NCBI GenBank assembly: GCA_010094025.1
Contig: ML991776.1
Location: 434,001 to 498,000 of the forward strand
Length of the DNA stretch: 64,000 nucleotides
Reading direction: 5' to 3'
From: Viridothelium virens
Taxonomy: Eukaryota > Ascomycota > Dothideomycetes > Trypetheliales > Trypetheliaceae
Below, one piece after another: positions 2,036 through 54,515 of the stretch. The translations under genes and the position numbers were made by a program. Below the pieces are notes generated by a model. The model saw only the letters and a program-made list of their open reading frames with translations. It was not told the DNA's origin and did no database searches. How positions within the stretch are numbered: position 1 is the stretch's first letter; each line of letters starts with the position of its first letter.

Positions 2036-3192
2036 ATGTTCAAGCCCACGCAAATTCTACAGAAGTCGCAGGCCCGTCTCCGCGGTCAACGTGGACCTGC
2101 GATTCGTATTCTACGAAAAGCCATCAGGACCATCAATCCCGACGCTATCATACCACCCAATCTCATGCCCGAGCATGCCACGCCACCTCCAAGAGCCTGG
2201 AAAGAGATGGGCATACCAATTCACAAGCTCATGCCAGAACATAATCAAAGAACAGAGTTACCCGAATTCTCTAGGAATCAAAGCCCTGAGCACCATGCAG
2301 GATTGATATCATGGCAAGACACGACCAGGAAAGATTTATCAGATTCAATAAAAAATGGGGAGGAACAACTTCCAGCTATTGTAGCCCGGAAAGGTGGTCG
2401 AATAGGTAAGTACTACATATCGCTAATATAATTGTCGACTCATGGCGTTGTTAGAGGTACCATTTGCATCTCAAGGCAAAGTGTCGGATAGCTATCCAGT
2501 CGGCTACAAACCACCAGCCCCTTTGTACTGGAATCATAGCATTTATGCGTACAACAAGAACACGATGCCAATCATACCTGCAACATCCGCCACTGCGAGG
2601 AGGATGATACGATTATACTACAACATGATACCTCGTGGTTTCAATGATGTGCTAGGTCGTCAGGTATTCGAGGACCATCTTCGAATCCTCTGTCATCGCT
2701 GACCTTCCTATGCTTAGTTGTCGAGACCAAGATATCTTTTGCGGTCAACCTTCCGAGCCTTTATTGCAGACCGCATGCACAATAAGATGCCTGTGGATTC
2801 TGACATCATGTCAAGGGTAAGGAAACTATACAAATTTGATTGTAGTGTTTCCCAGCTAAGAATTCCAGGTGCAACCTCGAAAAAAAGGAAGGATGGCATT
2901 CTGGCGCCCTTTAAGGAATTTATCCTCGAAACAACCCAACGTGCAATTTAAACATTATTCAGACAAAGTCAACATCGCAACATACGTATACGATCGACGG
3001 ATACAGGGCCTTAAGCACAGAATGGCTGTCCTTGGGAGAAGGCTTCAGCGCACTTTACGAATGAGCACAAGGACCGGTTGGGCCACTTTTGGCCGGTCCT
3101 GCGATTCCTGGGAGCATTGGAAGGCCAAGTCGGAAGAGGTACTGCCGGGAAGTAAATCAGGTAGGACGCGGCGAACGCGGCTTGTTGTATGA
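2036..3192 (+). CDS. Nuclear gene for a mitochondrial ribosomal protein uS3m (rps3)-like N-terminal region
   Basis: uS3m is a small-subunit mitoribosomal protein that most filamentous ascomycetes encode in mitochondrial DNA, often inside the large rRNA intron. Here exons 2036-2405, 2455-2663, 2718-2816 and 2869-3192 join in frame to about 333 codons. Residues about 149-158 read NHSIYAYNKN, and residues about 254-270 read KHYSDKVNIATYVYDRR. Fungal rps3/S5 proteins, as I recall them, have NSIYNYNKN and KHTSSKVIITLYVYN at the same spacing. The N-terminus is basic with no acidic residue in its first 30 or so positions, as in a mitochondrial presequence. Introns of 49-54 bases and unbiased codon use mark it as nuclear. 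The C-terminal half of uS3m is not found. An alternative last intron (3161-3199) would change only the tail. Confidence 0.55.
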
Positions 3193-3964
3193 TATTTAGA
3201 AACACGGCTTGTGCCCTGCGATAGAAATTGAATCGTGGAGACTTTGGTGCTTATTCGTCAACTACAGCTGTCCCCGATTTGGCCCTGTGATTCTGATACA
3301 CTCCTAGTGGATCCGTCATAAAAACTGGAAAGATCTACAGAAGTCTAGACTGCTGAGCTCAAGGACGGCGGACTCAAAGCATTTGTGATGAGTAATTAAT
3401 ATGAGGTACCCAACCTTGAACTTCTCGGGGCGGCAAGAAAGTCGCGCTAAACATCAGGCACCAGAATACCAGGCACCGACCCTTTCGAAATACGACCAAA
3501 GTGAGGCCTACATCTGCTCTTCCCCCACGTCTACCTTAATTTTCTGGGCAAACATGCTGGCCAAAAATACACTCAAAATCACCCTAGGATGACACTTTGG
3601 GTAGGTGCTCGGCAACGTGCATGAATTACAGGAGGTACTCTTGCCACGCTATTGGGCAGATACCCGCGTAGGATTTACAGCGCATCGAGATCACCCTCAC
3701 ACTTTGCGGCGGGTATCACGGTTGTGTCACATTTAGGCATCCGCGGTTCGTGCCTTGTGTAGGCAGATAGATGAGCGGGTGGTTTGACAAAATCTTGGTT
3801 CCTTTCTCCACTTGACAATTGATCCACGTCACGAAGCAACATTCTCTTTCAAAGGACCGTTTGTGCTTGCTATATGAATCGAATTCCGTATTACCCCAAG
3901 AATCTAACCCCATCTCCTCACCTTGTCCTTCTACATAACTTAATCTTAAGCTCTCGACGCAATC
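3193..3964. other. Intergenic; possible uS3m C-terminal remnant not established
   Basis: This stretch lies between the rps3-like gene and the VIT/VWA gene. A 63-codon frame (3401-3592) was compared with the uS3m C-terminus, but the resemblance is too weak to claim. The frames between are interrupted by stops. The last 200 bases are pyrimidine-rich and probably hold the VIT/VWA promoter. Confidence 0.4.
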
Positions 3965-6900
3965 ATGGTTCGGACATATCATATCTGTGGTTGTTACTAT
4001 ACAACAGGACCCCCTACTTCGGCTTGGGGTTACGCTCCTCGTACCTATTTGCCGCAAGTCGAGCTCAAGTCTCATTCAACCATTTTATCCACCAGCTCAC
4101 GTACGGTGCTCACTCAGACGTTCAGCAACCCGTCATCTACAAAGGGTATCAAGACTCTGCGGTATACCTTTCCTCTATATGATGGCGTCAGCGTTGTCGA
4201 CTTCGAGTGCACAATTGGCGATCGTAAAATCCATGGGGTTGTGAAGGAGAAGGAGAAGGCCCGGGCTGTATTCCAGGAAGCTGTTGATCAGGGACAACAG
4301 GCCGGCCTTCTTGAACAGCTACCTGATGCCTCCGATGTCTTCACCACAACTGTCGGGAACGTCCCACCAAGTGCTAAGATCGTCATCAACATCACTTACC
4401 TTGGCGAACTGAAAAATGACGCTGAAGTCGATGGCATTCGCTTCACCATTCCGACCAAAATCGCCCCTCGTTACGGCAGTTATCCTGGACAGCTCGCCTA
4501 CTCTGCTGCCGATGCGGCCCAAGCCAGCAAAGGGATGGAAATTATCGTGGATGCCTCAATGCCAGAGGGGTCTTTTATTAAGGCCATGCAATCTCCAAGC
4601 CACCGACTCGCTGTGTCCATTGGCACCCTCTCGTCGGCGCCGAACGCGGAACCGAGGCTCAACCAAGCCTCAGCAAGTCTCACACTGGGCTCTACAGAGT
4701 TGGACAGTGACTTTGTTCTTCAAGTTTTGAACAAGGATACTGGCAGCCCCAAGGCTATGCTTGAGAGACATCCAATGATACCTAACCAGCGTGCACTTGC
4801 GGTATCTCTTGTGCCCAGGTTCTCTCTTCCTCAAGCCCGACCTGAAATAGTATTTGTCGTCGATCGAAGCGGTAGTATGAGAGACAAAATCCCGACATTG
4901 GTCTCAGCCCTCAGAATCTTCCTCAAATCTCTTCCTGTAGGCGTTATGTTCAATATATGCTCTTTTGGTAGTTCGTATTCATTCCTCTGGCAAAAGAGCA
5001 AGACATATGATCAAAGTAGTTTGGACGTAGCCTTGGCCCATGTGCAGTCCTTCGGCTCCGACTATGGCGGGACGAATATGTACCAACCCATCGAAGCAAC
5101 TATCAACAATCGCTATGGAGATCTTCCATTGGAAGTTGTCTTCCTTACGGACGGTCAAGTAACGGACCAGGAGCTGCTCTTCAACCTGCTTAATCGGATG
5201 GTCGGAGAGAGCAAGGCACCAATCCGTTTCTTCACACTGGGAATTGGATCACAAACGTCGCATGCGCTTCTTGAAGGAGTAGCTCGAGCTGGCAACGGTT
5301 TTTCCCAGTCCGTTAAGGAAGGCGAGAAGCTTGATCGCAAGGTTGTACGAATGCTCAAAGGAGCCCTGACTCCCCACGTCAGTGATTACTCTCTCGAGGT
5401 TCGCTACAAAGAAGAGGAAGGTGAAGACTTTGAACTGGTGGACAAGATTGAAGAATGTCTTAACCTCGATGTGCTAGCTGCGCCATCCAAAGAAGACGAA
5501 GAGGACCGTCCCAATTCGCAACCTATATCACTATTCGATGCGAATGCAGATCCTGATAAGGACGAGAATCCAGGCAATGATGAAGATGGGCAGAAGCGGT
5601 ACAGCCACTTGCCGACTTTGTCCAGTCCCAAGATTCTACAAGCGCCTAATCGAATTCCGCCTCTATTTTCATTTATCCGGACCAGTGTCTATCTTCTTTT
5701 GTCCCCTGAGACAATCAAGAAAACTCCAAAGTCGGTGATTCTCAAGGCTTCGTCTCAGCACGGTCCTTTGCAGATTGAGATTCCGGTCCAAGTAATGGAA
5801 ACCCCTGGAGAAACCATACATCAACTCGCCGCTAAGAAGGCCGTTCAAGAGCTTGAAGAGGGCCGTGGCTGGATTTTCAGTGCTAAAGATCAGGCCACTG
5901 GTTCTCTTCTAAAGGATAAAATGCCCGGGCAATTCCCACAGATGGTCGAGCGCGAAGCCGTGAAACTGGGCGTCCAGTTCCAAGTCGGCGGAAAGTTCTG
6001 CTCGTTCGTTGCTGTCGAGGCGAATGATAAGAAAGCCGACAAAGAAGGCGATCTTGCGATGGAGGACACGCTAGGATATGAGTTCTTGGATGTGTCGAAT
6101 CAGACTATCAACGCAAAAACACCACACGACATGCCTTCCATCAGGGCGGCAAATGCGCAAAAGTCTCCTCCCAGATTTCAGATGATGTCAACTGCTAGTA
6201 CTCAATCCACGAACAACGATAGGCGATCATTTCCTCAACGCCATTCTACCCGGTCCCAACCGAGCTCAAACAATTTTGCAGTCCAATGGATGCCTCAGAG
6301 TGGGCAGGCTCAGCAAGTAGGAACATCTGGGGGATTCGGGAGCAGCTCTGGTAGCCTTTTCGGGAACGCACAGGCGAATCCGAGTTCCACTGGAGGGCTC
6401 TTTGGCAGTCAGGCCCCAAATCCAGGGAGCAGTGGACCTTTTGCGGGGGGAGCCTCAAGTCACGGTTCCAGCCTTTTCGGCAGCCAAGCCCAGACTCAGA
6501 GTTCCAGTGGGGGACTCTTCGGCGGCCAATCTGCAGTAACTAGCTTTGACGAAAATCGTTTCATGAGTTCGGACTGGACAGCTCATCCAACTGTTGAACC
6601 TACTGGGCATTTCAATATGGTGCAAAATTACACTTCTGCGCAAGATCCGCATCATGGAGCGAGTGGCAATTTCTGTGCAGAGAATCCTTCTGAGGTGTTG
6701 CAGGATGTCTCTTTCGACACTGTGACCAGTCCATTCTCTGCCTTCTCCAACGTCCCGCAGGACCAGCCAGTACCCTCACTCTTTGGACAGGTTCAAACGC
6801 CCCAGGTGGATTATTGTAGGAAACGTAATTCGGGGACATACCCGCGGGTCCCAACCCGCAAATTGAGGATTGGAAGCAAAGGTTCAGATCATAGTAATGA

Positions 6901-7261
6901 GCGCGTCGCTCATGGGGAGGAGGATGCTGCCAAGGACACAGCAGAGGAGCCCATGGAGGCTCTGATATCTCTTCAGACCTTTGAGGGACCTTGGGGATGG
7001 ACTCCAGAGCTTTTTGAGATCCTTGGCATCACTGAAGAAGCAGCGAGGCATGGCTTTGACAAAGCTGGAGTCGCAATGACTGAAAAGAATCTTTTGGCTA
7101 CTTCAATTGTGATTTGCTTCTTCCGGATCAAACTTGCTAGTGAAGAGGAGACATGGGAGCTCGTTCTCGACAAGGCGGTGAATTGGATTGAGAACCAGGC
7201 AGCTGAAGAGAGCCGCAGTGCCATGATGGCTACTGCCGAAAAGCTCGTCCAGAGCATTTGA
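3965..7261 (+). CDS. VIT and von Willebrand factor A domain protein with FG repeats
   Basis: This is a single uninterrupted frame of 1098 codons. Residues about 1-150 form a VIT (inter-alpha-trypsin inhibitor) domain, with FPLYDGVSVVDFECTIGDR and VFTTTVGNVPPSAKI. Residues about 290-460 form a VWA domain with a full metal-binding MIDAS: VDRSGSM, GGTNM and FLTDGQVTD. After a region resembling the post-VWA part of fungal homologues comes a low-complexity segment (about 790-860) with repeated GGLFG, SLFG and GGFG units like those of FG nucleoporins. The C-terminal 90 residues (GPWGWTPELFEILGI and on) resemble the end of animal PARP4-type VIT/VWA proteins. No signal peptide is evident, so a cytoplasmic or nuclear protein is likely. 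Its substrate or partner is unknown. The domain calls are firm. Confidence 0.88.
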   Translation: MVRTYHICGCYYTTGPPTSAWGYAPRTYLPQVELKSHSTILSTSSRTVLTQTFSNPSSTKGIKTLRYTFPLYDGVSVVDFECTIGDRKIHGVVKEKEKARAVFQEAVDQGQQAGLLEQLPDASDVFTTTVGNVPPSAKIVINITYLGELKNDAEVDGIRFTIPTKIAPRYGSYPGQLAYSAADAAQASKGMEIIVDASMPEGSFIKAMQSPSHRLAVSIGTLSSAPNAEPRLNQASASLTLGSTELDSDFVLQVLNKDTGSPKAMLERHPMIPNQRALAVSLVPRFSLPQARPEIVFVVDRSGSMRDKIPTLVSALRIFLKSLPVGVMFNICSFGSSYSFLWQKSKTYDQSSLDVALAHVQSFGSDYGGTNMYQPIEATINNRYGDLPLEVVFLTDGQVTDQELLFNLLNRMVGESKAPIRFFTLGIGSQTSHALLEGVARAGNGFSQSVKEGEKLDRKVVRMLKGALTPHVSDYSLEVRYKEEEGEDFELVDKIEECLNLDVLAAPSKEDEEDRPNSQPISLFDANADPDKDENPGNDEDGQKRYSHLPTLSSPKILQAPNRIPPLFSFIRTSVYLLLSPETIKKTPKSVILKASSQHGPLQIEIPVQVMETPGETIHQLAAKKAVQELEEGRGWIFSAKDQATGSLLKDKMPGQFPQMVEREAVKLGVQFQVGGKFCSFVAVEANDKKADKEGDLAMEDTLGYEFLDVSNQTINAKTPHDMPSIRAANAQKSPPRFQMMSTASTQSTNNDRRSFPQRHSTRSQPSSNNFAVQWMPQSGQAQQVGTSGGFGSSSGSLFGNAQANPSSTGGLFGSQAPNPGSSGPFAGGASSHGSSLFGSQAQTQSSSGGLFGGQSAVTSFDENRFMSSDWTAHPTVEPTGHFNMVQNYTSAQDPHHGASGNFCAENPSEVLQDVSFDTVTSPFSAFSNVPQDQPVPSLFGQVQTPQVDYCRKRNSGTYPRVPTRKLRIGSKGSDHSNERVAHGEEDAAKDTAEEPMEALISLQTFEGPWGWTPELFEILGITEEAARHGFDKAGVAMTEKNLLATSIVICFFRIKLASEEETWELVLDKAVNWIENQAAEESRSAMMATAEKLVQSI
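6331..6540 (+). repeat. FG/GLFG-type repeat block in the VIT/VWA gene
   Basis: About 70 codons carry imperfect 15-20 residue units rich in Gly, Ser and Gln. Each has an FG or GLFG core, including GGFGSSSGSLFG, GGLFGSQA, SSLFGSQA and GGLFGGQSA. The spacing resembles nucleoporin FG repeats. Confidence 0.8.
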
Positions 7262-7519
7262 GAAGGACATTTGTGTAGGGCTACAAAGTAGTCATCTAAA
7301 GGAGCAACATCAAGAAGTACTAGTGAGGACTTCGCAGAGATTTTCGAGATAATTTGGGAAGCTTCCAGGAGGGTTATTGCGAAGCACCTGAAGAACGAAC
7401 AATCCTTTCCAGAGCGCAGTAATACATACCTACCCAGTAGATAGCCCTAGCCTAGCACCCGCAAACCAATGCAACTAAGGTATATATCAATCCACAGCAT
7501 CTCCCGCTCAATAGCCCCC

Positions 7520-8308
7520 TCACTTCATCCCCATCGCCCCCAAAAACACCCGCCGCCTCCCCTCCCCCTCAATCCCCGCAACCACCTCCCCCATCCCCTC
7601 CACCTCCCTCACCCCCTCCCCATGCCCAAACGCCCACGCCCCTTCGCTCCCCGCCCCGTCCTCTTCCACCTCCTCATACCGCACCTGCCACGCCTGCCAG
7701 CGCTGCGCCTTCAGCGCTGCCACGTGCGCCTCGACGTCGTCGCGCGGGCCCGAGAAGACCATTACGCCTGGGTAGCCTGGCTTCGTGAGGCCCGCGATTG
7801 ACGAGGATGCCGGGTGGAGCGCGAGTTTGCGCTTGGAGGTGGCGAGGAGGTGGTGTAGCCAGATTATGACGGTGAGGGTTGGGGAGGGCGTTGTGGGGGA
7901 GGAGGAGGTGTGGGGTGGACTGGTGGGGTGGGCGGTTGTTGGGGAGGGGACGTCGGGGTTGGGCGTGGTGATTGAGGTTGAGGTGGATTCGAGGAGGTCG
8001 TTGAAAGTGGTGAGCATGGAGTCGAGGACGGGTTCGTTGGGGGAGAGGTGGATGGATTGGAGGGCCAATCGGTATTGGTTGCGGAGGTCGACTTTTTGGG
8101 GAGGGGCCCCGGTGACGGAGATGAGGTCGGGGAGGGATGAGGAGTTGGGGTAGGAGCTCGAGAGGCGGAGTTGGAGAGTTGCATGGGACAAAGTCGTGTA
8201 GGTTATTTCTTGAGTTTTGTTGTTGAAATGGAACTCGTCTGGGTACATTGCTTGGAGTAGAGAGATCTCATCTGATAGAGTTGATGTATCTTCGTCTAAT
8301 TCGTCCAT
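7520..8308 (-). CDS. RWD domain protein with Prp3-C/DUF1115-like domain
   Basis: The start is taken at the ATG at 8308; the frame stays open upstream to 8383 but without an ATG there. About 262 residues. The N-terminal RWD domain shows DEISLLQAMYPDEF and the following LRLSSSYPNSSSLPDLISV, which matches the RWD pattern of an acidic YP-containing start and a P-rich turn. The C-terminal part, VIIWLHHLLATSKRKLAL followed by GLTKPGYPGVMVFSG, matches the DUF1115 (Prp3 C-terminal) domain seen in RWDD2-type proteins. The role is unknown; RWD domains commonly bind other proteins. The last 40 residues are rich in Gly and Glu, and the gene is very GC-rich there. It converges on the VIT/VWA gene, with 258 bases between the stops. 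Confidence 0.8.
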   Translation of the reverse strand: MDELDEDTSTLSDEISLLQAMYPDEFHFNNKTQEITYTTLSHATLQLRLSSSYPNSSSLPDLISVTGAPPQKVDLRNQYRLALQSIHLSPNEPVLDSMLTTFNDLLESTSTSITTPNPDVPSPTTAHPTSPPHTSSSPTTPSPTLTVIIWLHHLLATSKRKLALHPASSSIAGLTKPGYPGVMVFSGPRDDVEAHVAALKAQRWQAWQVRYEEVEEDGAGSEGAWAFGHGEGVREVEGMGEVVAGIEGEGRRRVFLGAMGMK

Positions 8309-8901
8309 GATTTCAGGACTGTCTAGACCGAATTTAAGAGCTTGTCTGCTGTTTTCGTCAAGTACTGAGTCCTCGAGCACCACCGTCTAATCCGATAACA
8401 TAAAGGAATCTTTGATTCGGCGTCGAGATACCCCGAAAGTCGAGGAGCAGCTGAGATTCATCCATAGCGGAAATTTTTCCTCATTCTCGATTGTACCTTC
8501 AGACGAAGTTGTGAACCGCGATCTTCTATTCTACATTTGTTTCGTGAACATCAGTAATCCTCTGGAAGAAGCCAACATCCGGTTGAGCCAGGGTATTGAT
8601 GTACATACCAACCCATGGAGGTATCAACACCATGAGTGAAGGTCTCATGACAGTTAGGCTGCCAGGGCTTACTGCCCCACCAATCACCCCACTTCCATCC
8701 TCTTCGACCCCACTTGGTCGCCATCCGGCGTCTGCTACCTACCTTAGCTATTGATCAACCATAAAAGCGTCGCAATCGCCTCCCGGAATTCGTGCTGACA
8801 GCTAAAAGACCAATCCTCAGCAGAACTCAGATATCTTCAAATTCACACAAACAACTCCGAACTTTACAACAACTGTCAGGCAAACTTCGTGAGTCGTAAT
8901 C
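8309..8901. promoter_or_regulatory. Divergent upstream region, RWD gene and microprotein gene
   Basis: The 593 bases between two divergent starts contain the sequence tataaaagc-like run at about 8761 (ccataaaagcg), roughly 140 bases upstream of the microprotein ATG, which could serve as a TATA element. A 75-codon frame at 8412-8639 is not supported by any feature. Confidence 0.35.
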
Positions 8902-9044
8902 ATGTCTGGCCACTCAACCTGCCCGAAGTGCAATGCACAGATCTCTGGGAGCTCTAAGACGTGCGGTTCTTGTGGCGCGGTAAACTTCCTTTCCTTACTA
9001 GCAAAGGGCCCAAGCTGACCCTAGGGTAGTCTTGCCCTGCCTGA
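8902..9044 (+). CDS. Cys-rich zinc-ribbon microprotein (30 aa, two exons)
   Basis: Exon 1 is 8902-8979 and exon 2 is 9030-9044. The intron starts GTAAAC and ends with two possible acceptors, CCTAG and GGTAG. Using the second gives SCGASCPA and a stop, adding a last cysteine. The product is MSGHSTCPKCNAQI then SGSSKTCGSCGASCPA. It has a CPKC pair, a CGSC pair and a further Cys, the layout of a minimal zinc ribbon. I recall very small fungal proteins with the same KTC-SCG-TCP ending, but I cannot verify a family here. If the first acceptor is used, the tail is GSLALPESKPGTG instead. It is too small for most gene finders. The function is unknown; zinc binding is inference. Confidence 0.6.
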
Positions 9045-9451
9045 ATCCAAGCCCGGAACCGGATGAAGATGGAGCGGTGATGGATGACTTACGATAGCAG
9101 AGTATGAGATTTGACTTATGGGATGGGGACGAGGGATAGGGGCAACGGCTAGTGGCCACATTCACTAGAGATGATACAGAATCTATGAGATACTCGAGTC
9201 AAAGCCGCTGAGATTCAATGAGCATGTGGACTAATTGAGTATGCGGTAAATCTGACCCGATCGAGTTGTAGTGTAGCCGATAATCCTCCATCTAAGCCAA
9301 CTTTCCTTATTTCGTTGTCGTATTCGTGTCCATCACGTCAATGACCAATCGCACGATATCGCCTCCAATTCCACCGGCGTAGACCCAATCATAAAGCCGT
9401 CAGCAATTGAGCGCAGCACGGTACTGGAGATCGGAATGAGAAGCAACCGTA
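9045..9451. other. Intergenic between convergent genes
   Basis: These 407 bases hold the 3' regions of the microprotein gene and the zinc-finger gene. Nothing else is recognised. Confidence 0.4.
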
Positions 9452-10714
9452 TCAATAGTTGCGAATCCTCAAGCCGAGCGCTGCTGCTCGCATTGCATTA
9501 GCATCCGGGTTGCTCACAGCGCAACGTGGTTTTCCCAGTGGACGAACTCTATAGCATTCTTCTTCTTCCTCAGTATCGTCCTCAATATCGTCCTCAGTAT
9601 CGTCCTCAGTGGTATCTCCCGTCGGAGGTACCTTCGACTCATTCATCATAGACTTTCCCTTGCCTTTTTCTGACGCCTCTGAGTTGCCTGTTAAGACGAT
9701 CGGGTCATCATCGGAGAACTGGTATTCCCTGAGAGGTTTCTCAGCTTCTCGGGAAAATGCGAGAGAAACAGGCTCGGAGGAAACTGGAGTTGGAGAGACC
9801 CAGAAGGGATCGCGCGTCTCACGTTCCTTGGCTGCATCTACCTTTGCCTTTGCAGGTTCGCTCGCTTCGCCAGCTTCGGCCCATACGTCACGAGTCCGTT
9901 TAGGTGCTGGAGAGGGCGAATCAGATCTAGTATCTGACGAATCGTATGCATCGAATGGAAAAAAGGACCGATTTTCAGTAAGGGATTCTGAGTCAGCAGG
10001 GATGAAAAGACTTGACCCGATTACCACTGGGGTTTGTCCTCTTGCAAGCGCAGCAGCTTGTTCCTCAAGACACTGGCACGAAGGATGGCTGTCCCTGCAT
10101 GTCCCGTTTATTAGCAAATGTCTAGTTCAAATGACGTTCTCTGATTGTAACCAGACTAACCACAACTCGTACAATGGCCTTCCGTTCTTTTGCCAACATC
10201 CAAGCCCAACAACATCGTCCCCAAAAAAGTGCTGGCGCACTGCGTTTGGACGAGTAAAAGCTTGGTTGCAAAGAATACACCTATAGAAGCCGAGTGGTCG
10301 GATAAGGCAGTCTCGTTCTTCTACTGGGGTCCTGCCACGAAACCAGAACTTGTGCTTTTGCAGACGCTTTGGTGTAACTTTGTCATGCTCATTGGTAGTT
10401 TTCTGCATGCTAATAGCTGATCTTGGGAAACTATCGATGACCCGGAATAACGGAACGAAAAGACCAAGTTTAGGATGAGCCTGGGATGTTTAGATGTGTT
10501 CACTCTTCGTTGAGGGTTGGTCATACCTTGGCAAGTTCTTGATGGCCGCTTCGATCCATTTCTTACGTACGGCAGGAGCAAGGCGGCGCTTTTGATTTGG
10601 GCAAGAAGACTTCGAGCTCGGCGTACCAATCACCGTGCAAGGGCAAGACCTGGCAGATAAGCTAGCACAATTGAGCTGTGGATATTCGGTGTTATCGAAG
10701 CTATTCGAGGTGTG
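9452..10714 (-). CDS. Zinc-finger protein, 5' end unresolved
   Basis: Three exons join in frame: 10714-10527, 10409-10161 and 10094-9452 (introns 10526-10410 and 10160-10095, GT-AG), giving about 359 residues. The first of these follows a TTCTTAG acceptor, so at least one more exon must lie upstream, perhaps the ATG-led frame at 11131-10865. Residues in the middle exon read FYRCILCNQAFTRPNAVRQH, a C2H2-like finger (C-x2-C-x12-H), followed by a Cys. Before it is a basic stretch, NQKRRLAPAVRKKW. The C-terminal half is disordered and ends in a strongly acidic TEDD/EEEEE run before a conserved-looking tail. It is probably nuclear, but no family is recognised. The exon joins are supported by reading frame only. 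Confidence 0.5.
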
Positions 10715-11196
10715 CTAAGAAAAGTTCGTATTTCATCGGTTCAGCAAGAAAGGAGATCTGAGTTTTAACATCAGCACATTTTTCCACGAAGCAGGCAAAG
10801 TGAAAAAGGAGCCTCACACGAGCTTTCTCAAGACGAGCACGCTTCTATAGGGTTCCAGATGTTGCTAAGCTTCTTCTGGTAGATTTCGTGATAAAGGGTT
10901 CATTTTAGTGGATAACCCTGTGCTCTTAGGATAGATCGGAGCTGGTAGCCATAATAAGTATGTTTGACTATTCTCACTTGGCTGCAACGCAGGTGTTTTT
11001 AGGTGTGCGCGTAGCATGTCAACAATGGCAGGCACGGCGAATGACACGTAGCCACAGTGAATGCAGACTCTAGAAGTCTCGAAGCATCGTCTAGAAACGT
11101 GACGAACATCACTGCATATCTCGATTGGCATTCTCTCTGGATGGAGACGCTGGTCTGTTCACACAAGAACACAGCAGTTCAAACTCCCGTATTCCC
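10715..11196. other. Possible 5' exon region of the zinc-finger gene
   Basis: The minus strand holds an ATG-led frame (11131-10865) starting MPIEICSDVRHV with RVCIHCGYVSFAV and LRAHLKT, which could be a finger-like C-x2-C...H motif. I could not join it in phase to the exon starting at 10714 with convincing splice sites, so it is left as a candidate exon. Confidence 0.3.
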
Positions 11197-12726
11197 CTAT
11201 TCATCATGGGATGACGTCAGATAACCATTCTTGATCGCTTGCCTGGCATGACTAGGCTCATAGACAGCATGACTTATCGACCTGTAGGCCTTCCAAGCAT
11301 TATTCTTTTCCTTAAACAGAACAAAGTCGGCGGGCTCTCCAGGCTTCAGATCGAAAGTTGCGTGACTTCCTGAGGGATTGTAGCTAATAACTCGCTTCGC
11401 TCTTTGGGAAACACATTCCTGTTTTGTCTATCAGCACTTGAGATTACGATGTATGCTGGGACAAATTACATAGAGGAGTTCAGTGTCCTCTTTTGTCCCT
11501 GCCTGATAGGCTCCTACACCTAGGCATGCTACACTTAGTGGATCGCAATTGCCTTGAGGTGTGAAGGCATTCCCAACATTGTTCACACCGATTGCAGCCT
11601 CAAAGCTGTAGTTCTTGATGAGTTCTGGAATTGCAAGCGTTCCTCTCGTCTTACTTTTCGTACGCATCATATAAAGGTCAGATGTTGGAAGCCCGACGAA
11701 AGACACATTCATGCCGTCAATCGCTTCGCGGAGCTTTTTCCAATCCTCTTGACCAAAGTGCGTCAAGCGTGTGCAATGGCCCAATGCACACGTCTTGGGG
11801 TGGACGTTCGACCATTTCTTCGCTCTCAGAGTTTCAACCACAAACCACACCAGAGGCTCCTTCGCCTCGTCCAAATGATAGTCCAGATGAAAGTCAAGGT
11901 GTTTCATGTGAGCTTTAGAAAGCTCGACAGTCCACTCCACATTCAGCTTCATTTCTTTTATGTCATGTTCAACGTACGGGGTACTTCCAAGCACATCGAC
12001 CTCATTCCAGCTGGCCGCCTCCGTCATTAGTTCTCTATTTCTCTCACCTCGATCCGGACCCGAGAAAAGCGCATGCTGGGCAAAAGCACATATCTGAATG
12101 TCGCAATGATTCGCGAATTCACGTTTCAATGTCACAGCAGCCTCAAGGCAATTGAAGTGGACGACATCATCCACTTCAACAAATGCCCTCATAGCAGTGA
12201 CACCATAGCTGATGCTCTCCTTGATAAGACTGCGCCCTCTCCGCGTAAGATCGGAAACATCAAAGCGAGCCTTGGCTTTGGCCGTGACATCCATGGCCTC
12301 CTGAAAAGTTCCATCCACGACCTCTAGATCAGCGAATTGCGGATCTCGCAGGAGAAAGCATTTATCCAGGTGTACATGGACGTGACAGAGAGAAGGTGCA
12401 AGTAATTGGCCTTTACCATTCAGAATACCAGGGAGATGACGGACTTTCTCCGATGCAGTCAGGTCGTGATGGTCTACTGCTGCAATCTTGCCATCTTGAA
12501 TTGTGATATCCCACAAGGACTCGGCTGGTCTTTTGGGGAGACGAACGCCTAGGATTTTTGACAACCGGGTGTGGGGAAGATACGAAGCTTCATCTTTGGT
12601 GTCGCCAGGCAGATCCTGTCTACCGACTTGAATCCTTGCCATCTCTGCGTTCAAGTCTATGCCGTGAGAGGCAAGAAATTGTCCAGCCATTTTATGCTCG
12701 GTAGACCGGAGGAAAGATGAGATCAT
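11197..12726 (-). CDS. Amidohydrolase, cytosine-deaminase-like
   Basis: Members of this metal-dependent hydrolase superfamily deaminate or hydrolyse cyclic amides; cytosine deaminase CodA is the closest type by motif. Exon 1 (12726-11470) and exon 2 (11418-11197) join in phase 0 through the intron 11469-11419, giving about 492 residues. The metal-binding HxH is in CHVHVHLDKCF, further ligand candidates are in LDFHLDYHLDEA and LGHCTRLTHFG, and the typical C-terminal GEPADFVLFKE appears only after splicing. The frame is open upstream to 12888 without an ATG, and a GTAAGT at about 12806 suggests that a 5' exon may exist, so the start is uncertain. No signal peptide is seen. The substrate cannot be told from the sequence. 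It is divergent from SWP73. Confidence 0.8.
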
Positions 12727-13292
12727 CGGTCTCGGCAGAACGACTCCTTTTAGTGTAGAACAAAAGGCGGAGTACCGACTAGCATAAGATCTGGATGCAT
12801 TGCACTTACCGTCTATTGGGAGTTCACTGAATTCAGCGGTTGTGAATTGCTGAAGAGGTGAAGATGAGAGGAAATTGTCCTGCTCCAATCAGGCCTTGAG
12901 GGAGAAGCTGCAGCAACAATCCTACGAGATCTACCGAAATCGCAACCACCCATGCCTGTGTGCGAGTTGCTCATCACAGTCTTTCGCCCTCAACGCAGCT
13001 CTTACTCCCACTCACAGACATAGATGATGAAGTCCCGATGGCCGTAGAGATGTAGCACCTAGGAGCTGAAATTAAGTAGAAGCTCTCGTTCCAAAGGGGG
13101 GGGCCCTCTGCCCCTCCACACCCACCCAATTTCGGTTAGCTGCCCTGAAAGCGACAGCTACACGACTTTCTCACCCTGCACGCGTCGAGCTGGAGTCCAG
13201 CTGCATCACCTTCATCCCCAGTCCACCGCGCAGCGTTGTCAATCCATCGCATCGGAGGCCGCGGTTGTAGTCGCGAGCGCTATCAGAAGACG
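12727..13292. promoter_or_regulatory. Divergent upstream region, amidohydrolase and SWP73 genes
   Basis: These 566 bases lie between two divergent starts and include a G-tract at about 13096-13105. The first 160 bases read as coding-like on the minus strand and may include a 5' exon of the amidohydrolase gene. Confidence 0.35.
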
Positions 13293-15009
13293 ATGCAGCA
13301 GTATCGGAATTACCCGCAGGCGAACCAGCCATCACCTGCCGCACGGCGTGGTCCAGGTACCTTCCATTTCCTCGACTCACAATATTAGCGACAACTCTCC
13401 TGTTTCCGCGCCATGATTAAGTGGGCTGACTTAGATACGACTTTGCGTCGCGCAGGTCCCATGGTGCCAGCCCCTCATACAGCCCAATCCCTCAATCCCG
13501 CCCAACTCCAACAACAGCAAGCCGCCGAGGCGCAGAAGCGGGACCTTGGGAAACGACAGGCTAAGAAACCTACTGACAAAAATCTACCTGATGGAGTTGA
13601 ATCGGTTGTCATTGGCGATGGCGTGGAACGGTATAAAGCGCTGCGAGAGGTCGAGCGTAGACTCGATGCGGTCATGATGAAAAAGAGATTGGATATTCAA
13701 GATAGTGTGAACCGAAACGTACAGAAGCAGCGGACTTTGCGCATTTGGGTTAGCAATACCGTGGAGAACCAGCCATGGCAACAGAACGGAATGTCGGCAG
13801 ATGCCTTCGACTTTCAAGCCGACAACGCTGCTACTTACAAAGTCAAAATCGAGGGACGATTATTACCTGATGACGAAGAGCTTGATGATCCGGATGCGAA
13901 CAAGGAGAATGAGGGAAAGAGGGAAGAAGATAGCGATGCTATGGATCACGATGGACAAGATGGCACAAACAAGCCTAAGAAGCCTCAAATACCGGGCCAG
14001 CGAACAAAATTCTCACACTTCTTCAAATCCATAAAGGTCGAGTTTGACAAGAATCAAGACATGCAAGGAGAAACGCCTACATATATTGAATGGGCAAAGC
14101 CGGCGCAAAACCCCCGACAGAGTGTACCGTCCACCAACTCAAACGAGGCCAATTTTGACTGTCTCGAATTTGAGCGATCCAGCGACGAAAACGTCAACAT
14201 CACCATCAATCTCGTTCGCGACGAGTCGCCTGAGCGCTTCAAGCTCGATAAAGCTCTAGCGGATATCCTTGACACTGAGGAAGAGGACCGAGCGGGCGTC
14301 GTCATGGGCATCTGGGAATACGTGAAAGCGCGAGGCCTCCAAGAAGACGAGGAGAACCGCATGGTGCATTGCGACGATCGCCTCAAACAAGTACACAGCC
14401 CCATCTCTTCAAACCTCCTCTCCGCCCCTCCCTAGAACCAACAGCTACTAACACTTCCTCCACCAGGTCTTCAAGAAAGACACCGTCTTCTTCCCGCACA
14501 TCCCCTCGGACATCTTCCCGCACCTCTCTCCCCTCCCTCCGCACCGCATCTCCTACACCATCCGCGTCGACAAGCCCTACCACGACCACCCCACCCCGAC
14601 CATCTACGACATCCGCGTCCCCGTACACTCGCCCCTCCGCGCCGCCACCCTTGCCCTCACCCAGTCCCCAACCCACCTACACACGCTGCAGCGCATCGCC
14701 CAGCTCGACGATCAGCTCGCCATCACCGTCCAGGCGCTCGCGACCGAGAAGGCCAAGCACGGCTTCCTGACCAGCATGAGCCGCGACCCGGCAAGGTTCG
14801 TGCGTCGCTGGGTCAGCAGCCAGAAGCGCGATTTGGAGGTGCTGTTGGGTGAGGGCGTGAGGGGCGTGGGTGGTGGTGAGGATGGGAGCGCGGAGGAGTT
14901 TCGCAGGGGGGGCAGGGATGGCGTGTGGGGTGGGGAGTTGGCGCGCGAGAGTGTGGCGCTGTGGAGTTCGAGGCGGAGGGCGAGTCCGAGTCGGAGGGCG
15001 GCGGGGTGA
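13293..15009 (+). CDS. SWI/SNF chromatin-remodelling subunit SWP73/BAF60 (SWIB domain)
   Basis: This is a core accessory subunit of SWI/SNF- and RSC-type remodellers. Exons are 13293-13356, 13456-14390 and 14467-15009, joined by GT-AG introns in consistent phase, giving 513 residues. Splicing the first intron gives the start MQQYRNYPQANQPSPAARRG; the ATG inside that intron (13413) is not the start. The middle exon has the family region RTLRIWVSNT, then FSHFFKSIKVEFD, the SWIB-domain stretch VVMGIWEYVKARGLQED and MVHCDD. Exon 3 adds FFPHIPSDIFPHLSPLPPH and, near the C-terminus, MSRDPARFVRRWVSSQKRDL, which is strongly typical. The last 60 codons are very GC-rich. It acts in the nucleus. The call is secure. 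Confidence 0.92.
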
Positions 15010-15280
15010 GAGGGATGAGGTGGGGTGGGGATCTTGAGGGGGAAGGATTGGGAGAGTGAATAGAGTGCCGGAAGTCTTCTGGTTGTGGAGGACGGCGTTT
15101 TGGTTGCGGGAGCGCGGCCTGACGTGTATGGGTTCTGGCAGCACTTTGTCGACATGTGGCAAAAAGTATACCCGATTGGCTTTTGTTTTGCAATCTAATC
15201 CCTTCGACTCTACAAAAAGCATCGAACTAGGAGCTATATTCTCTAGATTTGGTGGAGGGTATCTTGCAAAGGACCCTATA

Positions 15281-15329
15281 CCTTACCGCGGCTGGGGGGG
15301 TTCCTCAATTGGTAATCAATACAATGTTA
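15281..15329 (+). repeat. Left terminal inverted repeat
   Basis: This is the 49-base left end of the element. It begins CCTTACCGCGG, contains a run of seven G and ends AATCAATACAATGTTA. It has one more G than the right end and about three substitutions. Confidence 0.8.
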
Positions 15330-15336
15330 CCTCAGT

Positions 15337-15930
15337 TTAATTCCATAGCCTATATGCCGGTCCCCAGAGAGGATCATTCTCAATGTGCTCGTGGTTGGGT
15401 CCCAGTCTATCAAAGTCAATATCGAGCTGGATTTTTTCTTGGGAAATTGGCGTGTTATAATCCGCTTGGAAGAGGAAGACTTCTGAGTATCTGACTGATT
15501 TCGTGTTCTCGTGGCGAGCTCTGTATGCTTTGTCAAATTGTTTCTTTCTTTCTGCATAAGTTGATTTGCACCATGGCCAGTTGTCGGTACCCTTCTGTGG
15601 ATAATGTCCTGGTGGCAGCATCAGCGGTTTATATTTCATAGCGAAGGCTTTTTCTCCGTAGAGTCCGTAAACACCCATAAACCAAACATGGTGAAGTTTC
15701 TTATTCTCATCATATCTCAGGTATAATCTACCCAAAGGATATTGTTGAGGGAGAGGATATCCTTCATTGTTTACCATATTCAGGAAATTTGCGACAAGGG
15801 AGCTGATGGGGAAGGTGCCATTGATATGCGTTTCGTACAATAGTTGGCCAAATGCGATTGACTCCAGCTGCACAAATGGGGGAGAGGGTTTGTATCTGGA
15901 TATTGGCGCCATGAGCATGAGCGTTAACAT
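15337..15930 (-). CDS. Unknown 197-residue protein carried by the inverted-repeat element
   Basis: I do not recognise this protein. It starts at the ATG at 15930 and stops eight bases inside the left repeat's inner edge, so it occupies almost the whole element. It is rich in Tyr, Pro and aromatic residues (YPLPQQYPLGRLYLRYDE, HVWFMGVYGLYGEKAFAMKY, DNWPWCKSTYAERKKQ) and ends DPLWGPAYRLWN. No transposase DDE/DDD pattern, helix-turn-helix, membrane segment or signal peptide is evident. The frame is intact. It may be an element-specific gene, or host sequence captured between inverted repeats. Composition is ordinary for the window. Expression is not supported by anything but the open frame. Confidence 0.45.
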   Translation of the reverse strand: MLTLMLMAPISRYKPSPPFVQLESIAFGQLLYETHINGTFPISSLVANFLNMVNNEGYPLPQQYPLGRLYLRYDENKKLHHVWFMGVYGLYGEKAFAMKYKPLMLPPGHYPQKGTDNWPWCKSTYAERKKQFDKAYRARHENTKSVRYSEVFLFQADYNTPISQEKIQLDIDFDRLGPNHEHIENDPLWGPAYRLWN

Positions 15931-29252: not shown

Positions 29253-32200
29253 TCACCGGTGATAATAAAAGACTAAGCTGTCCCAGTCTTGATCTGTGAG
29301 ATCCTCCACTGGACGGCGGTCGTCCGGCCTTAAATCGTGGCGTAACTGCATGGCCCGAGCCAAGAGAGCGTCGCCTTCGATCACGTTATCCATGGACTTG
29401 ACCAACAAACCCTTCTTCCACAGCGCGCGCGCTGCTTGTGGCTTGTGATAATCATCTGTGTACGTCGTAAGTGCTCCTTCCAATGCAGACCTAGAGAGGG
29501 CTTCATTATGATGCATCCTACACGGAGTTGTCCTGTCAGGTACTCACAAGGCTTTCATAAAGTCCTCCCGCCGCAAATAATCCTTTGCAACGGCGTATAA
29601 GCAGTCTCCAGTAAACTCATGCTTGTCTCCGTTGACTGCCCGCAGATTCTCCACAGCGCGTTCATGGAAGCGTAAACCCTCGTCATACCGTTCCTGCGCT
29701 ACTCGGAGATTTCCCATGGTGCGCCAAATTTGTCCGCTCCTGTAAGGTGTCAGACAGAGGTGACTCATTCCAGAGGTAAGTGAGGTTTGAGCTTACTCGA
29801 CTGTAGTCTTGTCATTCATTCCAAGTACGTCTTCGTGCTCGTCCAAAACAGGCACAAGAAGCTCCTCCGCCTCTGCAAGACGGCCCTCCTGAATCAACAC
29901 CAGCGCAAGATTCACCGCCGGCCAGGTCTCGCTAAACTGTGGGTAGTCTTTAACATTCTTAATCGTGTCATACGAAAGCCTCCAGCTCTTTATAGCGTCA
30001 TCTACCTCTTCTTTGCTTATGTAGCTAACAGCAAGTATGTTGTAGGCCATGCCTAGAGCCAGCGTATCTTCTTTCAGCTTGTACTTCCGGATGTTTTCGA
30101 ACAGGATTTGGATCCAGGTCTTGATGTCGTCCATGCCATCTCCCACTCCGCTCATGATCTTGGCGAGTGAGAGAGTATCGTGATCTTCACCAAGCCAGTG
30201 TGCCACTTCTCTATCGTTTCCATTGCCCGAGTCAATGGCTGCCTGCAGTATGATGGTTGAGAGCTCCGCAAAAATTATAGCCAGGCCATATGAGTTTCGT
30301 TCATAGAGATACCTGTCGAGATGGAGGCAGTGAGTGTCCAACATCAAGAAAATAGAATGCAAGGAGAGTACCTACCAGCCAAAGCTTGAAAACAATATTC
30401 CGCTATCTGTCGTCCCATCGTAAGACCGGAATCGAATGCTGTCCCCGAAAAGGTTCTCCAGTCGCACAATATGTGTAGTGTACTTTTCGGCGATCCGGTA
30501 ACGCCACGCTTGGTTCCTGGTTGGATCTGTCCCAGAAACATAGGGCCAAAGGCTCGAAAGCAAGACTACCGCAGCGGCAAAAATTGATCGCAGATCTTCT
30601 TCTGCCATAGTCTCCCTGACCACATCTTGTACCAATCGATGGAGACGCAGCTCACTGGTTGCCATGTTCCGCGCGACTAAAGATGTCTGAATGAGTTCAG
30701 TTCGCGCCTCAAAGTAGGCGGACTTGGTTTTTGGAAAATTTTCTAGGGAAACTTTATCTGCACCATCGGTCAAGACCTTTTCAGGGACGCGATCCGGGTC
30801 GACGACAGATAAGACTTTCAGGACTGCTAGTGCCGCTGGAGAAAGCTGTTCTACCGCCCATGTCGTCCAAACTGTCTGCTTATAGTTGCCAAGCGATCCA
30901 GGTATGCGCTGCCTGTGGAGATTCCTAGGATTTTCATTGTAGTATTCCTCGAATTCATTCAGTGAAAGGTGCTTCCGGCGAATGATGGCGCTCATTTGTG
31001 CAATCGCTAGCGGTAAACATCCGAGCCTTTGAACGATTCGAGTGCCGGCTTCCGTGGCATCCGGTTCGCCTGTTCTACCAGAGAACTTACAAAGCATCGC
31101 AGCGCCGACACTGGGTTCCAGCGGAGACAAATCCAATCCCATTGGAAGCCTATACGTGTTCTCTTTCATGTATGGATATCGAGTCGTGACAAGCATTGAA
31201 CCTGGACCTTCAGTAGGAAGCCAATCGTACATAATGTCAGGATTATCTGCATTGTCGAAAACCAGCAGCCACTTAAGCTGCGTATTCTTGGCAGGGTCTT
31301 CATGTAAATAGTGGCCCGTGGGATCTGAAAGCCAGAGTTTCACCATTTCACGAGCTGCAACCTCGTCCAGTTTTGAGTCTGTTCCTTTCAAGCCTAGCTC
31401 ACTTGCTATTGTAGAAAATTGAGCAGCGAGCTTCTGTGTAGTGTCTGCATAGACCCAAAAAACGGCGTCGAATTTGTGACGTCTTGAAAACAAGTATTCA
31501 ATCGCAACCTCAGTCTTGCCGATTCCTCCCATTCCACAGAGAACAAAGGATCTTGGAATGGCCGTGTTGTCTGTTGAAGATTCTGCTTGGTCTTGCGTAG
31601 TCTCTCGTGGGAAGAATTCTTGATCAATTTGATCAAGAACGTGTTCTTGGCCGAAGAAGTCCTTGTTTCGGCAAACCGTAGTAATGTGGGAGAATGGAAG
31701 CTGGACACCTGAATTTCTTTTCGACTTTTCCTCGACAAGCTCATAATCTACTCGCTCGCTCGTAGCATTAGTGGAAGTTGATGTCGTCCGACTATCAGCT
31801 GATTCGCTTGATTGAGTATCAGGAGTCAGGCCTACTCCAGAATCTGTCTCCCGAAAAGAGCTGATGCTGCTTTGTGCTCGTAATTGGAGGTTCATACGGT
31901 CATCCATTGATATTTTGCGAAAAGCTATTGCAATATGTGTGGGCGCGTTTTGAGCCAGTGATTTGAAAAATTCAACCAAGCGCCGGTAAAGTGGACCATC
32001 GACCTCTACGTTACATAGTTCAGCGTGAGTTGAGTCCAGCTTGAAGAGAGACTCATTTCGGCAATTGCATGTCGCAATTGCCTCAGTCACAAGCTGTCGT
32101 CGTCAGAAAGTTGATCTGCCTAAGTGGAAGCTGTTGCTTACTGTCAAGGAAGATTTAGAGCTTGCTCGAAAGGCCAAAAACGGATTCTCCCTAATTTTAC

Positions 32201-42151: not shown

Positions 42152-45100
42152 TCACGCCGCCGACCCCACGTACGCCCGCACGAAGGACGTCTCCGTCCCC
42201 GTGCAGACCGCCGCGAACGCCGCCCGCGCCCTCCGCTTCTGCTCCGCCGACAACACGACCGGGCCCGACGGCAGCTCGGTCGCGTTGGGGAAGGCGAAGC
42301 GGCGGGGGACGGCGGCGGCGGCGGTGGGCGACGCGGCGGCCACGCTGCGCAGCCCCGACGGCCGGGCCGGCGTGTAGCGGGCGGCCTCGGCGCGGGCGCG
42401 AGCCACCGCGTGGTCGGGGAGGGGAGGCGGTCCCATGGTGGTGGTGGGAGCGGGCGTAGAAGTGGGAGTGCTGGGAGTGCTGACTGTTGGAGCTGGTGCT
42501 GGAGAGGACTCTGGGAGGGTCGCATGCGCTGGGGTTGGGCGAGGTGGTGGAGGCTGCGTCCAGGTGGGCTCAGTGGGAGCTTCGGTGGTGACGCTGGGAG
42601 TCTCGACGATAGCTGGGATAGGACTGGTGCTGCGAACGGGAGTGGGAGAAGGTGGTTCGGAGCTGGAGTCGGAGTCGTAGGTGAAGGTGTAGGTTATGGT
42701 AGGTCCGTTCGGGGCATACGTTGCAGCGTCAGTGCTATCATTATCTGCGATTTCTTCGCAGGTCGGCTGAAAGAGGTTCTCGCTCATGCGCGCTTTCTTG
42801 GAACGCGGCTCTTCTGGCTCTGGTTCCTCCTCCATAGTATCTCTCGGACGTTTGACCCCTACGTACTCGCCGGCACCTGCCCTGAGGACTGGACGTGGGC
42901 TGTCAGGATCAAGGAACTGGGGCACTTCGTGGCCATCTTCATCGTAAAGCGAGATCATGCGACGCTTGCTAGGCTGACCTTCCACGTCAATGTCACGCTC
43001 GTACAGTTCGACAACGTCTTCTTCTTCATCAGAATCGTAATTGAAGAATTCGTCGACCAGTGCAAATGTGCTGGATGGCTGGCTCCGACGCCTATGAGGA
43101 ATACTGACGAAGTCATCGATGCGATAGCGTTTTCTCTTTTCGCCAGCACGTTGTTCTACTTCCTCAGCCTTGAACTCCTCAATGCGCTTGCGATTTTCGT
43201 CAGAGTAGAACTGCCTCGTCACTCGATATCGCTTCGCGCGCTCTATATTTTGGAGGCGCTGTTGCTCTCTGTACCTCTCGTTTTTGGCTTGTTGCTCAGT
43301 GACTGTGTCACGGATCATTTGTTTTTGGCTGGCAGTAAGACGATCCATGTAATCTATCATCCAAAAATCTCCGTTAACAGGCGGAGCTGTACGTGGTTCC
43401 TGTTCCACGTTGATGGTCTGTTGGGAGACTGGTGTCACTGGTGCAGTAGTTTGTGCTTCAGCATCTCTACCACCGGCAGATGCACGGCGACGACCCCATG
43501 AGAAATAGTTCTTGATTCTGGAGAGGAAGCCCGTATTGGTGGTTCGAGGTGGTGTGTTAGGCTGTACATGAGTGGCCTGTTGGGGAGGAACTGGCGTGGT
43601 GGCGCCTTGTTGTGATGAATTCTGCCCCATTTGCGCGGCTTCTTGAATGGACGCAGCTGCTGGGCTCTGTGGTGGTGAAGTGTGTCCTGGATGACTAGAC
43701 TGTTGAGAGGACGTGGACGAGGCAGATCCAGTCGGGACTTGAATGAAGAAAGGATGCCCATCATCCGAAGATTGTTGTATCAATGGAGACGGAGTAGAGC
43801 TAGTAGGAGTATCTTGGATTGGCGTAGCGTGTCCAGCAGTAGAGCTAGTAGGAGTATCTTGAATTGGCGTAGCGTGTCCAGCACGCACGGCTTGCCACTT
43901 TGGCACATATGGCGCAGAGGCGGTGGAGCTTTGGATTGGGGATGAATCTCCAGCTTGTGCTGATTGTGCCGAAAACATAGATGTGGTGGTTGGTGGTGGC
44001 GAGGCATTCTCCATATACGAATGCTGTTTGGCAGAGGGTGGAGTGTTGGAGTGTTGGAGTAGTGCGGCTTGTCCTGCAGACTGTGCTTGTTCAGCAGGCT
44101 CTAACACCGATGGACTGGCATGCTGGTATAATGGTGATTGCACTGGATGAGTTTCGGTCGAGGCACCAACCGAAGCTGAAGGTGGCTGCCGCGGTGTGAT
44201 ACACGGAGCTGCTGGTGTGGGGGTGGACATTGAATAGAGCTCTGAGAGAGCACTGGTCTCTGCTGGAGACTGGTAATTACGAGGCGCAATGCGCGAAGCT
44301 ACTGGTGAAGGTGTGGACATTGATTCAAGTTCTGTGAGAGGACTGGTTGCAGGTGGAGATGGATTGGCCTTATGCTTAATCTGCATAACCGCCGGGGTGA
44401 TGAGGTGTTGGGTCGAGGAGGGTTTCTGGAGAGGGCCAGCTTGTGTAGCTGCTGGTGTCTCAGCGATTCCTGTCATAAGGGTATCCGCCGTAGTGGTCGT
44501 CTGTTGGACAGCCGGTGTATTGGTTTGCGGAATTGATGAGGTCTGCCCGGTAGGTGGTGTGAATAGAACAGATTGGTTCGGTGAGACATGCTGCTCCGAT
44601 GCGCTTTGAGGGTCAGGTGGAAGGGAACGATTCGTCGCGGACAATGATGCTGTGGTTGCTGTGTCCTTTGCGATTTCCGTTGCAGTGCGTGCAGTGCGTG
44701 CTGTACGTGCTGTGGTTGATGGTATGATTGATGCTGAAACTGATGCTGAAGCTGCTGCTGCTGAGTTCATTGCTGCAGTGACGTCATCTGCAATACTCGT
44801 GATTGAGTTTGTTGTTGTTGTTGTTATTGTTGACATCTCGGCATTCTGTCCGGCGCGGTCGGTGGGGTTGTTCTCGAGGGTGGGTGAAGTAGCATCTTCG
44901 GAAGAGCTGTTGAATGACAATGCATTGCTGCTTGACTCTGGCTGCGAGTCTGAAGTGGATTGGGTATTCTGCATGTGCTGATCGTCCTGGTCTTTCTTAG
45001 AATTGCGCGCCTGCCTGGTCGCTGCTGTTTCGCCGCTCTTGCTGCGGGCATTGCGCTTGCGACGCGGCGTTTCGAGGCCAGGGCGAAGAGGTGAGTCTGG

Positions 45101-45181: not shown

Positions 45182-45722
45182 GATGGCAGCTTAAGTGTGA
45201 ACGAAGCAAGAAGGTGGAGTGGACGTTCTTGGTGAAAATGGAGGGAGCTTCGATGGCTGTCAAAGAAGTTTAAGTTGTCGGTGATCGGTCACGTCGGGGT
45301 CCCTGATCGCGGCTTACCCAAAACAGCTATTGGCGTGTCGGTTTCCGGGCGCTAGTCCTGTCATAGTACCTGTGGCGCGACGCATCCGCCAGGTACCCCA
45401 CGTGGCTTTCTATATCCAGACGTGCAGAATCCAAATTAAATACGTGGGAGAAAGGGTGGGAAACAGACATAATAGTTTGATAATGACATAATGGCATTGC
45501 TTCCGCCCACATAGCTGCTGACGAGACCCGTCGTCCTCCCATATCCTAGCTTTATTTTTATTTTTATTTTTTCTATTGACTTTTGTGCCCTTTTCTGTCC
45601 TAAATGTAGACTAAGCCACCATACAACATGATGCCTCATGCGTGACCGATTCCCGCCCAAAACTCCTAGCATATGCATACACTGGAATGGCAGCAGAAAG
45701 CCACACGACTGCATACCCGTTT
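45182..45722. other. Intergenic with a T-rich tract
   Basis: These 541 bases lie between the starts and ends of two minus-strand genes. A TTTATTTTTATTTTTATTTT-like tract lies at about 45550-45572. It is otherwise unremarkable. Confidence 0.4.

Positions 45723-48201: not shown

Positions 48202-54515
<6,314 letters not shown>

Follow-up and report, generated by a model that had tools for sequence, protein, structure and literature searches.

Most filamentous ascomycetes keep rps3 in mitochondrial DNA. A spliced gene at 2036-3192 of the + strand in the window (the whole 64-kb stretch of DNA that was analysed) raises the question whether part of its product, the mitochondrial ribosomal protein uS3m, may be encoded here in the nucleus. 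Judging from the sequence comparisons described below, we consider it quite probable that this nuclear gene is of mitochondrial origin and encodes the N-terminal part of the small-subunit ribosomal protein uS3m.

Structure and nuclear setting of the gene

The gene runs from an ATG at 2036 to a TGA stop at 3190-3192, and its four exons give a protein of 333 residues with a pI of 11.2. Its parts are the following.

2036-2405, + strand: exon 1, with the ATG start, the basic leader and further residues without a recognised relative; no Pfam match above the cutoff
2406-2454, + strand: intron 1, 49 nt, GTAAGT...TAG; retention leads to a stop
2455-2663, + strand: exon 2, which carries block 1; its frame spans 2427-2699
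2664-2717, + strand: intron 2, 54 nt, GTATTC...TAG; retention leads to a stop
2718-2816, + strand: exon 3, which belongs to the spliced model and follows intron 2
2817-2868, + strand: intron 3, 52 nt, GTAAGG...CAG; retention leads to a stop; it lies inside the extra stretch described below
2869-3192, + strand: exon 4, with block 2 followed by a basic tail (63 residues) and the TGA stop; its frame spans 2860-3189

All three introns are of the GT...AG type and follow coding phases 1, 0 and 0, and in each of them a branch-site-like match is found 15-29 nt upstream of the acceptor. The open frame needs the removal of every one of the three, as keeping any single one brings in a stop. A nuclear, spliced gene had been predicted originally, and this is borne out by the four exons and the three short introns. 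In the spliced frame there are seven TGG codons and not a single in-frame TGA ahead of the stop, so that the standard code suffices to read it. The codon statistics were less informative: the frame gave 0.015 bits per codon, while control stretches reached up to 0.037 and exon 4 gave -0.08. Codon bias therefore gives no independent proof of coding, the gene not being separated from the control stretches.

The surroundings resemble what is usual in the nuclear DNA of filamentous fungi. Pfam domains recognised in the neighbourhood (18 of the 44 open frames were scanned) are V-ATPase AC39 to the left, followed by VIT/VWA, SWIB, GH72, epimerase and NB-ARC, together with phosphoribosyl pyrophosphokinase, AROM domains, HET, EAF, Dor1 and a UBE2O-like domain. 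Neither a tRNA nor an Rfam match at the gathering score was found in the 64-kb window. Encoding in mtDNA is usual, if not essential, for the uS3m family; here the locus is of nuclear type, with short GT-AG introns and nuclear neighbours. Elsewhere in the window, NB-ARC/DUF7779 and HET-domain genes at 30375-32102 (- strand) and 54456-56654 (+ strand) belong to the usual fungal incompatibility or immune-type repertoire, and a stop-to-stop frame of 1012 residues at 42155-45190 (- strand) has no Pfam match at 1e-5.

Decayed mitochondrial DNA copied into the nucleus (a NUMT) would explain why the protein is shortened and why coding is unsupported by codon statistics. Against such a copy stand three canonical introns, each of which keeps the frame open. 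Moreover, the coding GC is 48.5%, against mostly 24-32% (one 43%) for the fungal mtDNAs in the table of PMC6221350, no in-frame TGA precedes the stop, and a basic leader stands in front. We regard a NUMT as very improbable.

Similarity of two blocks to fungal mitochondrial uS3m

Direct identification by family searches failed. With the window protein no Pfam family reaches its cutoff, and NCBIfam and Rfam likewise gave no direct identification. A phmmer search of the whole protein against 177,635 distinct PDB sequences returned five matches, the best of which was mitochondrial S5 of Neurospora crassa (uS3m; PDB 6yw5 chain CC) at E 0.058, with residues 132-184 aligned to S5 39-91. Against 72,556 plasmid records, tblastn with the whole protein gave three matches at E up to 10; the best, at E 2 and including both blocks, was the rps3 of NZ_CP053901.1, and S5 as a query picks out the same place in that record. 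With E values no better than 0.058 and 2 for the whole protein, a gene of this kind could escape ordinary BLAST.

Because the PDB match to S5 was weak by itself, a second reference was sought. The letters of the S5 reference were recovered from alignments. Its C-terminal domain matches one of the 72,556 plasmid records, and this is again NZ_CP053901.1, a record of 26,385 bp filed in PLSDB as 'Proteus mirabilis plasmid pJPM35-3'. The stretch fetched from it (7145-15402, 8258 bases, here called L001) contains an LSU rRNA, nine tRNAs, a COX1 frame read in code 4 (Pfam E 3.7e-74) and rps3. Because of the LSU rRNA, the nine tRNAs and the code 4 COX1, the record looks like fungal mtDNA that was mis-filed. 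The rps3 of L001 lies downstream of the LSU rRNA, with its N part at 3160-3498 and its C part at 3962-4264, and does not lie in a single frame there, for which indels in the assembly may be responsible. L001 and S5 are 51% identical in the C-terminal domain and 35% in the N part.

Compared with the window protein alone, L001 rps3 gave 47.4 bits in BLASTP (E 6.6e-12 for this one comparison). A two-sequence profile of mitochondrial rps3 was then built from L001 rps3 and S5, and the window was cut in six frames into 1905 segments for comparison. The spliced model matched the profile at E 9.3e-11. Among the 1905 segments, the frame of exon 2 came first (E 3.1e-7) and that of exon 4 second (E 0.0073), and the next segment stood at E 4.2. 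In this check the match to uS3m that had been proposed from the letters held. The alignment by hhalign covers block 1 only (P 2.9e-6). Between residues 151 and 212 the alignment to L001 rps3 is free of gaps, and the similarity continues across the junction of exons 2 and 3. The two blocks are as follows.

2505-2627, + strand: block 1, residues 141-181, of the type SIY.YN.N ... LI..YFN; raw score 76 to S5 (next best of the 1905 segments, 40) and 71 to L001 rps3 (next best, 44)
2944-3000, + strand: block 2, residues 252-270, of the type KHT..K....Y..NR; raw score 69 to L001 rps3 (next best of the 1905 segments, 39)

None of 10,000 shuffles reached the L001 score of block 1, and none of 10,000 that of block 2 (the shuffle maxima were 49 and 49). 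Block 2 was also found by tblastn against L001, with 63% identity over 19 residues (E 0.001). Against S5 it scores only 33, which was reached by 168 of 5000 shuffles and equalled or exceeded by at least seven other segments; block 2 against S5 alone is not significant. It can be seen that block 1 resembles fungal mitochondrial uS3m by the PDB search, the raw scores, hhalign and the profile, and that block 2 does so against L001, weakly against Pfam VAR1, and not significantly against S5 alone. The two rps3 blocks named at the outset, including NHSIYAYNKN, are indeed present, with a similarity above chance.

The Pfam evidence for block 2 comes from fragments. The raw frame of exon 4 has one Pfam match, to PF05316 (VAR1), at E 0.097 and below the cutoff; a shorter fragment of block 2 matches VAR1 (E 0.029) and Snapin_Pallidin (E 0.08), both below the cutoff. 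With two overlapping fragments of block 2 the VAR1 scores were 14.8 and 13.1 bits, short of the gathering score of 33. The match sits where L001's own block 2 matches the VAR1 profile. No Pfam family was matched by the block 1 fragment alone. As controls, S5 and the two pieces of L001 were scored in the same way, and they also remained below 33 (30, 23.1 and 22.2 bits). Since true mitochondrial rps3 pieces fall below the cutoff as well, the failure to assign the window protein to a Pfam family does not count against it. Two other candidates were rejected: SAP18, whose 15.8 bits (E 0.018) fall short of the cutoff of 27, and Snapin_Pallidin, seen with the one fragment.

Further searches marked out the range of the similarity. 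When PDB was searched with a profile of L001 rps3, S5 and the window protein, the one related protein to come up was S5, a member of the profile; the remaining matches were unrelated and had E values of 0.31 or more. We have seen no apparent link in sequence to further structures of uS3. Searched alone, the C-terminal part of the window protein found no uS3m in PDB. Viral contigs scanned for relatives gave none that was confirmed, and none would be expected there.

The weak whole-protein searches (E 0.058 and 2), taken by themselves, would leave room for a chance similarity. Against this stand two blocks in the family's order, the absence of any shuffle in 10,000 that equalled either L001 score, and the first and second places among 1905 segments, so that chance is an extremely improbable explanation. 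Taken together, the comparisons indicate homology between fungal mitochondrial uS3m (rps3/S5/VAR1) and both blocks.

Spacing, leader and the S3 domain

The order of the blocks is kept as in the family, and the spacing is 39 residues longer than in L001 and S5. The difference is due to one feature.

2775-2943, + strand: 39 additional residues (213-251) that separate the blocks, present in neither mitochondrial reference; the stretch contains intron 3

The original prediction had placed the two blocks at the right spacing, which does not agree with these additional residues.

Ahead of block 1 there are 140 residues without known relatives. The first 35 residues include nine K or R and no D or E, as in import leaders. 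The best hydrophobic moment over 18 residues is 0.64, and 134 of 2000 shuffles were as high. Of the basic, import-type extension described earlier, the basic and acid-free start is therefore confirmed, while its amphipathicity is not clearly above what the composition gives. Within the part that has no known relatives, the motif LMPEH occurs twice, at residues 43 and 65, which are 22 apart (window 2162-2242).

The protein ends 63 residues past block 2. For the C-terminal S3 domain (GxRLE..GRLTKR ... GAF.VKGWVSG) no convincing match was found in the protein or in the 64-kb window. The best scores of the S3-domain queries across the window were 44 (S5) and 50 (L001), where the same method gives 71 for block 1, and in the three + frames of 2901-4000 neither query scored above 35. 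The window-wide matches at 44-50 are taken as chance. The C-terminal domain of S5 likewise had no match in phage records. That only the N-terminal part is present, as the first reading of the letters had it, agrees with these searches of the protein and window; because the S3 domain was tested and not found, we do not class the gene as a complete uS3m but as a nuclear homologue of its N-terminal part.

C-terminal exons could have been missed downstream, or could have diverged, in which case this would be a full uS3m gene. There is space for them, about 770 bases between the stop and the ATG of the next gene at 3965, and there is one donor-like site at 3152, just 5' of the stop. However, the C-terminal domain is the better conserved one in the family (51% against 35%), and yet the + frames of 2901-4000 do not exceed 35. 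It seems improbable that the gene is complete in this way.

The protein might also have a new role, for example as an assembly factor or an accessory mitoribosomal protein, being a nuclear protein with an N-terminal domain derived from uS3m while the complete uS3m is made elsewhere. The 140 residues without known relatives, the 39-residue insertion and the missing S3 domain would fit such a protein. On the other hand, the two blocks still stand in the family's order, and with a pI of 11.2 the whole protein is basic, as expected of a ribosomal protein. We consider a new role unlikely, if somewhat less so than a full gene with undetected exons.

Preferably, the gene may have arisen by a functional transfer from the mitochondrion to the nucleus, which is the most likely account; its support lies in the homology and the gene structure. 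Nuclear introns and nuclear composition, expected of such a transfer, are both found. An organelle-to-nucleus transfer had been suggested originally; the homology, the nuclear introns and the composition speak for it, and the block spacing that had been cited in its support does not. A piece of mitochondrial rps3 would have become a nuclear gene, gaining introns and a leader. After splicing, its mRNA would be translated in the cytosol and the protein directed to mitochondria by its acid-free leader; once imported, the product would fill the place of the N-terminal part of uS3m in the small-subunit head. The C-terminal part might come from another gene, nuclear or mitochondrial, or might be dispensed with, other proteins compensating; a further option is that a full rps3 is retained in mtDNA and the window protein has a different role.

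One form of this account is that uS3m is split, with the N-terminal part encoded in the nucleus here and the S3 domain by a gene of its own, in the nucleus or remaining in mtDNA. We put this forward tentatively, as a reading with rather less than an even chance. If it is true, gene fission would have preceded, or accompanied, the relocation to the nucleus, and a split could explain why rps3 is 'missing' from some Dothideomycete mtDNAs.

Reported absence of rps3 from other fungal mtDNAs and comparison with known systems

According to the available text of a 2017 study, its search for a nuclear counterpart of rps3 was unsuccessful in every Dothideomycete, though two Capnodiales mtDNAs are without rps3 (PMC5626475). 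In a table of 28 fungal mtDNAs, rps3/rps5 is absent from two, those of Zasmidium cellare and Zymoseptoria tritici, both Capnodiales (PMC6221350, part of the text). For Mycosphaerellaceae mtDNAs 14 conserved protein genes are given, and the accessible text has neither 'rps' nor 'ribosomal protein' (PMC7999263). Some Pleosporales are also described, in part of one paper, as being without rps3 (PMC11167856). The Capnodiales link comes from the literature only and not from the window sequence. In yeasts, rps3 is said in excerpted text to be patchy and hard to annotate (PMC10701893), and from the same source some absences from mtDNA may be failures of annotation.

A nuclear replacement has been considered before. 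A nuclear analogue or homologue may make up for the loss of rps3, as stated in the available portion of PMC10294050, citing Wai et al. 2019. Deletion of rps3 or its transfer to the nucleus is attributed to Korovesi et al. 2018 in the text available of PMC11881002; a nuclear gene may thus already have been described in Korovesi et al. 2018, which we know through this citing paper. One statement in the partly accessible literature we read as referring to cytosolic RPS3; otherwise a nuclear copy would already be known. Among the matches listed, which cover titles and the openings of abstracts with subscription journals mostly outside, no sequenced nuclear gene for fungal mitochondrial uS3m is described. 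A diverged, intron-broken and shortened nuclear gene is the kind that ordinary BLAST could miss. If real, the present gene would offer a query with which to search the nuclear genomes of other fungi for missing rps3, and for a second gene with the S3 domain.

The closest known systems include the two references. In S5 of N. crassa, as in the window protein, the region aligned to block 1 is followed by the KHT/KHY block, in the same order. S5 has 508 residues with a C-terminal S3 domain, whereas the window protein has no S3 domain and carries 140 residues ahead of block 1; S5 is encoded in an intron of an rRNA gene in mtDNA (PMC5626475, part of the text), in contrast to the nuclear, spliced window gene. 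The rps3 of L001 shares both blocks, block 2 being close (EFKHTNDKVNITLYVYNRQ / QFKHYSDKVNIATYVYDRR). It differs from the window gene in lying in mtDNA after the LSU rRNA, in its shorter spacing between the blocks and in having the S3 domain (in another frame).

Among Dothideomycetes, the rps3-type sequence in the mtDNA of Bipolaris sorokiniana was assigned to two short genes, rps3 (399 bp) and rps5 (555 bp; PMC7225605, partial text), which the accessible text of PMC11277600 calls two rps3 homologues. In the later paper PMC11167856, one rps3 is given for each of five Bipolaris species and rps5 is never mentioned in the available part. Both genes of B. sorokiniana are mitochondrial, unlike the window gene. 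In the human mitoribosome uS3m is a protein of the head (PMC11452305, partial text). The uS3 of the ciliate mitoribosome consists, according to the available text of PMC8998825, of a mitochondrial uS3m together with the nucleus-encoded mS31 and mS92. The ciliates, an unrelated lineage likened here by description only, thus offer a precedent for pieces of uS3 that are separately encoded in two genomes.
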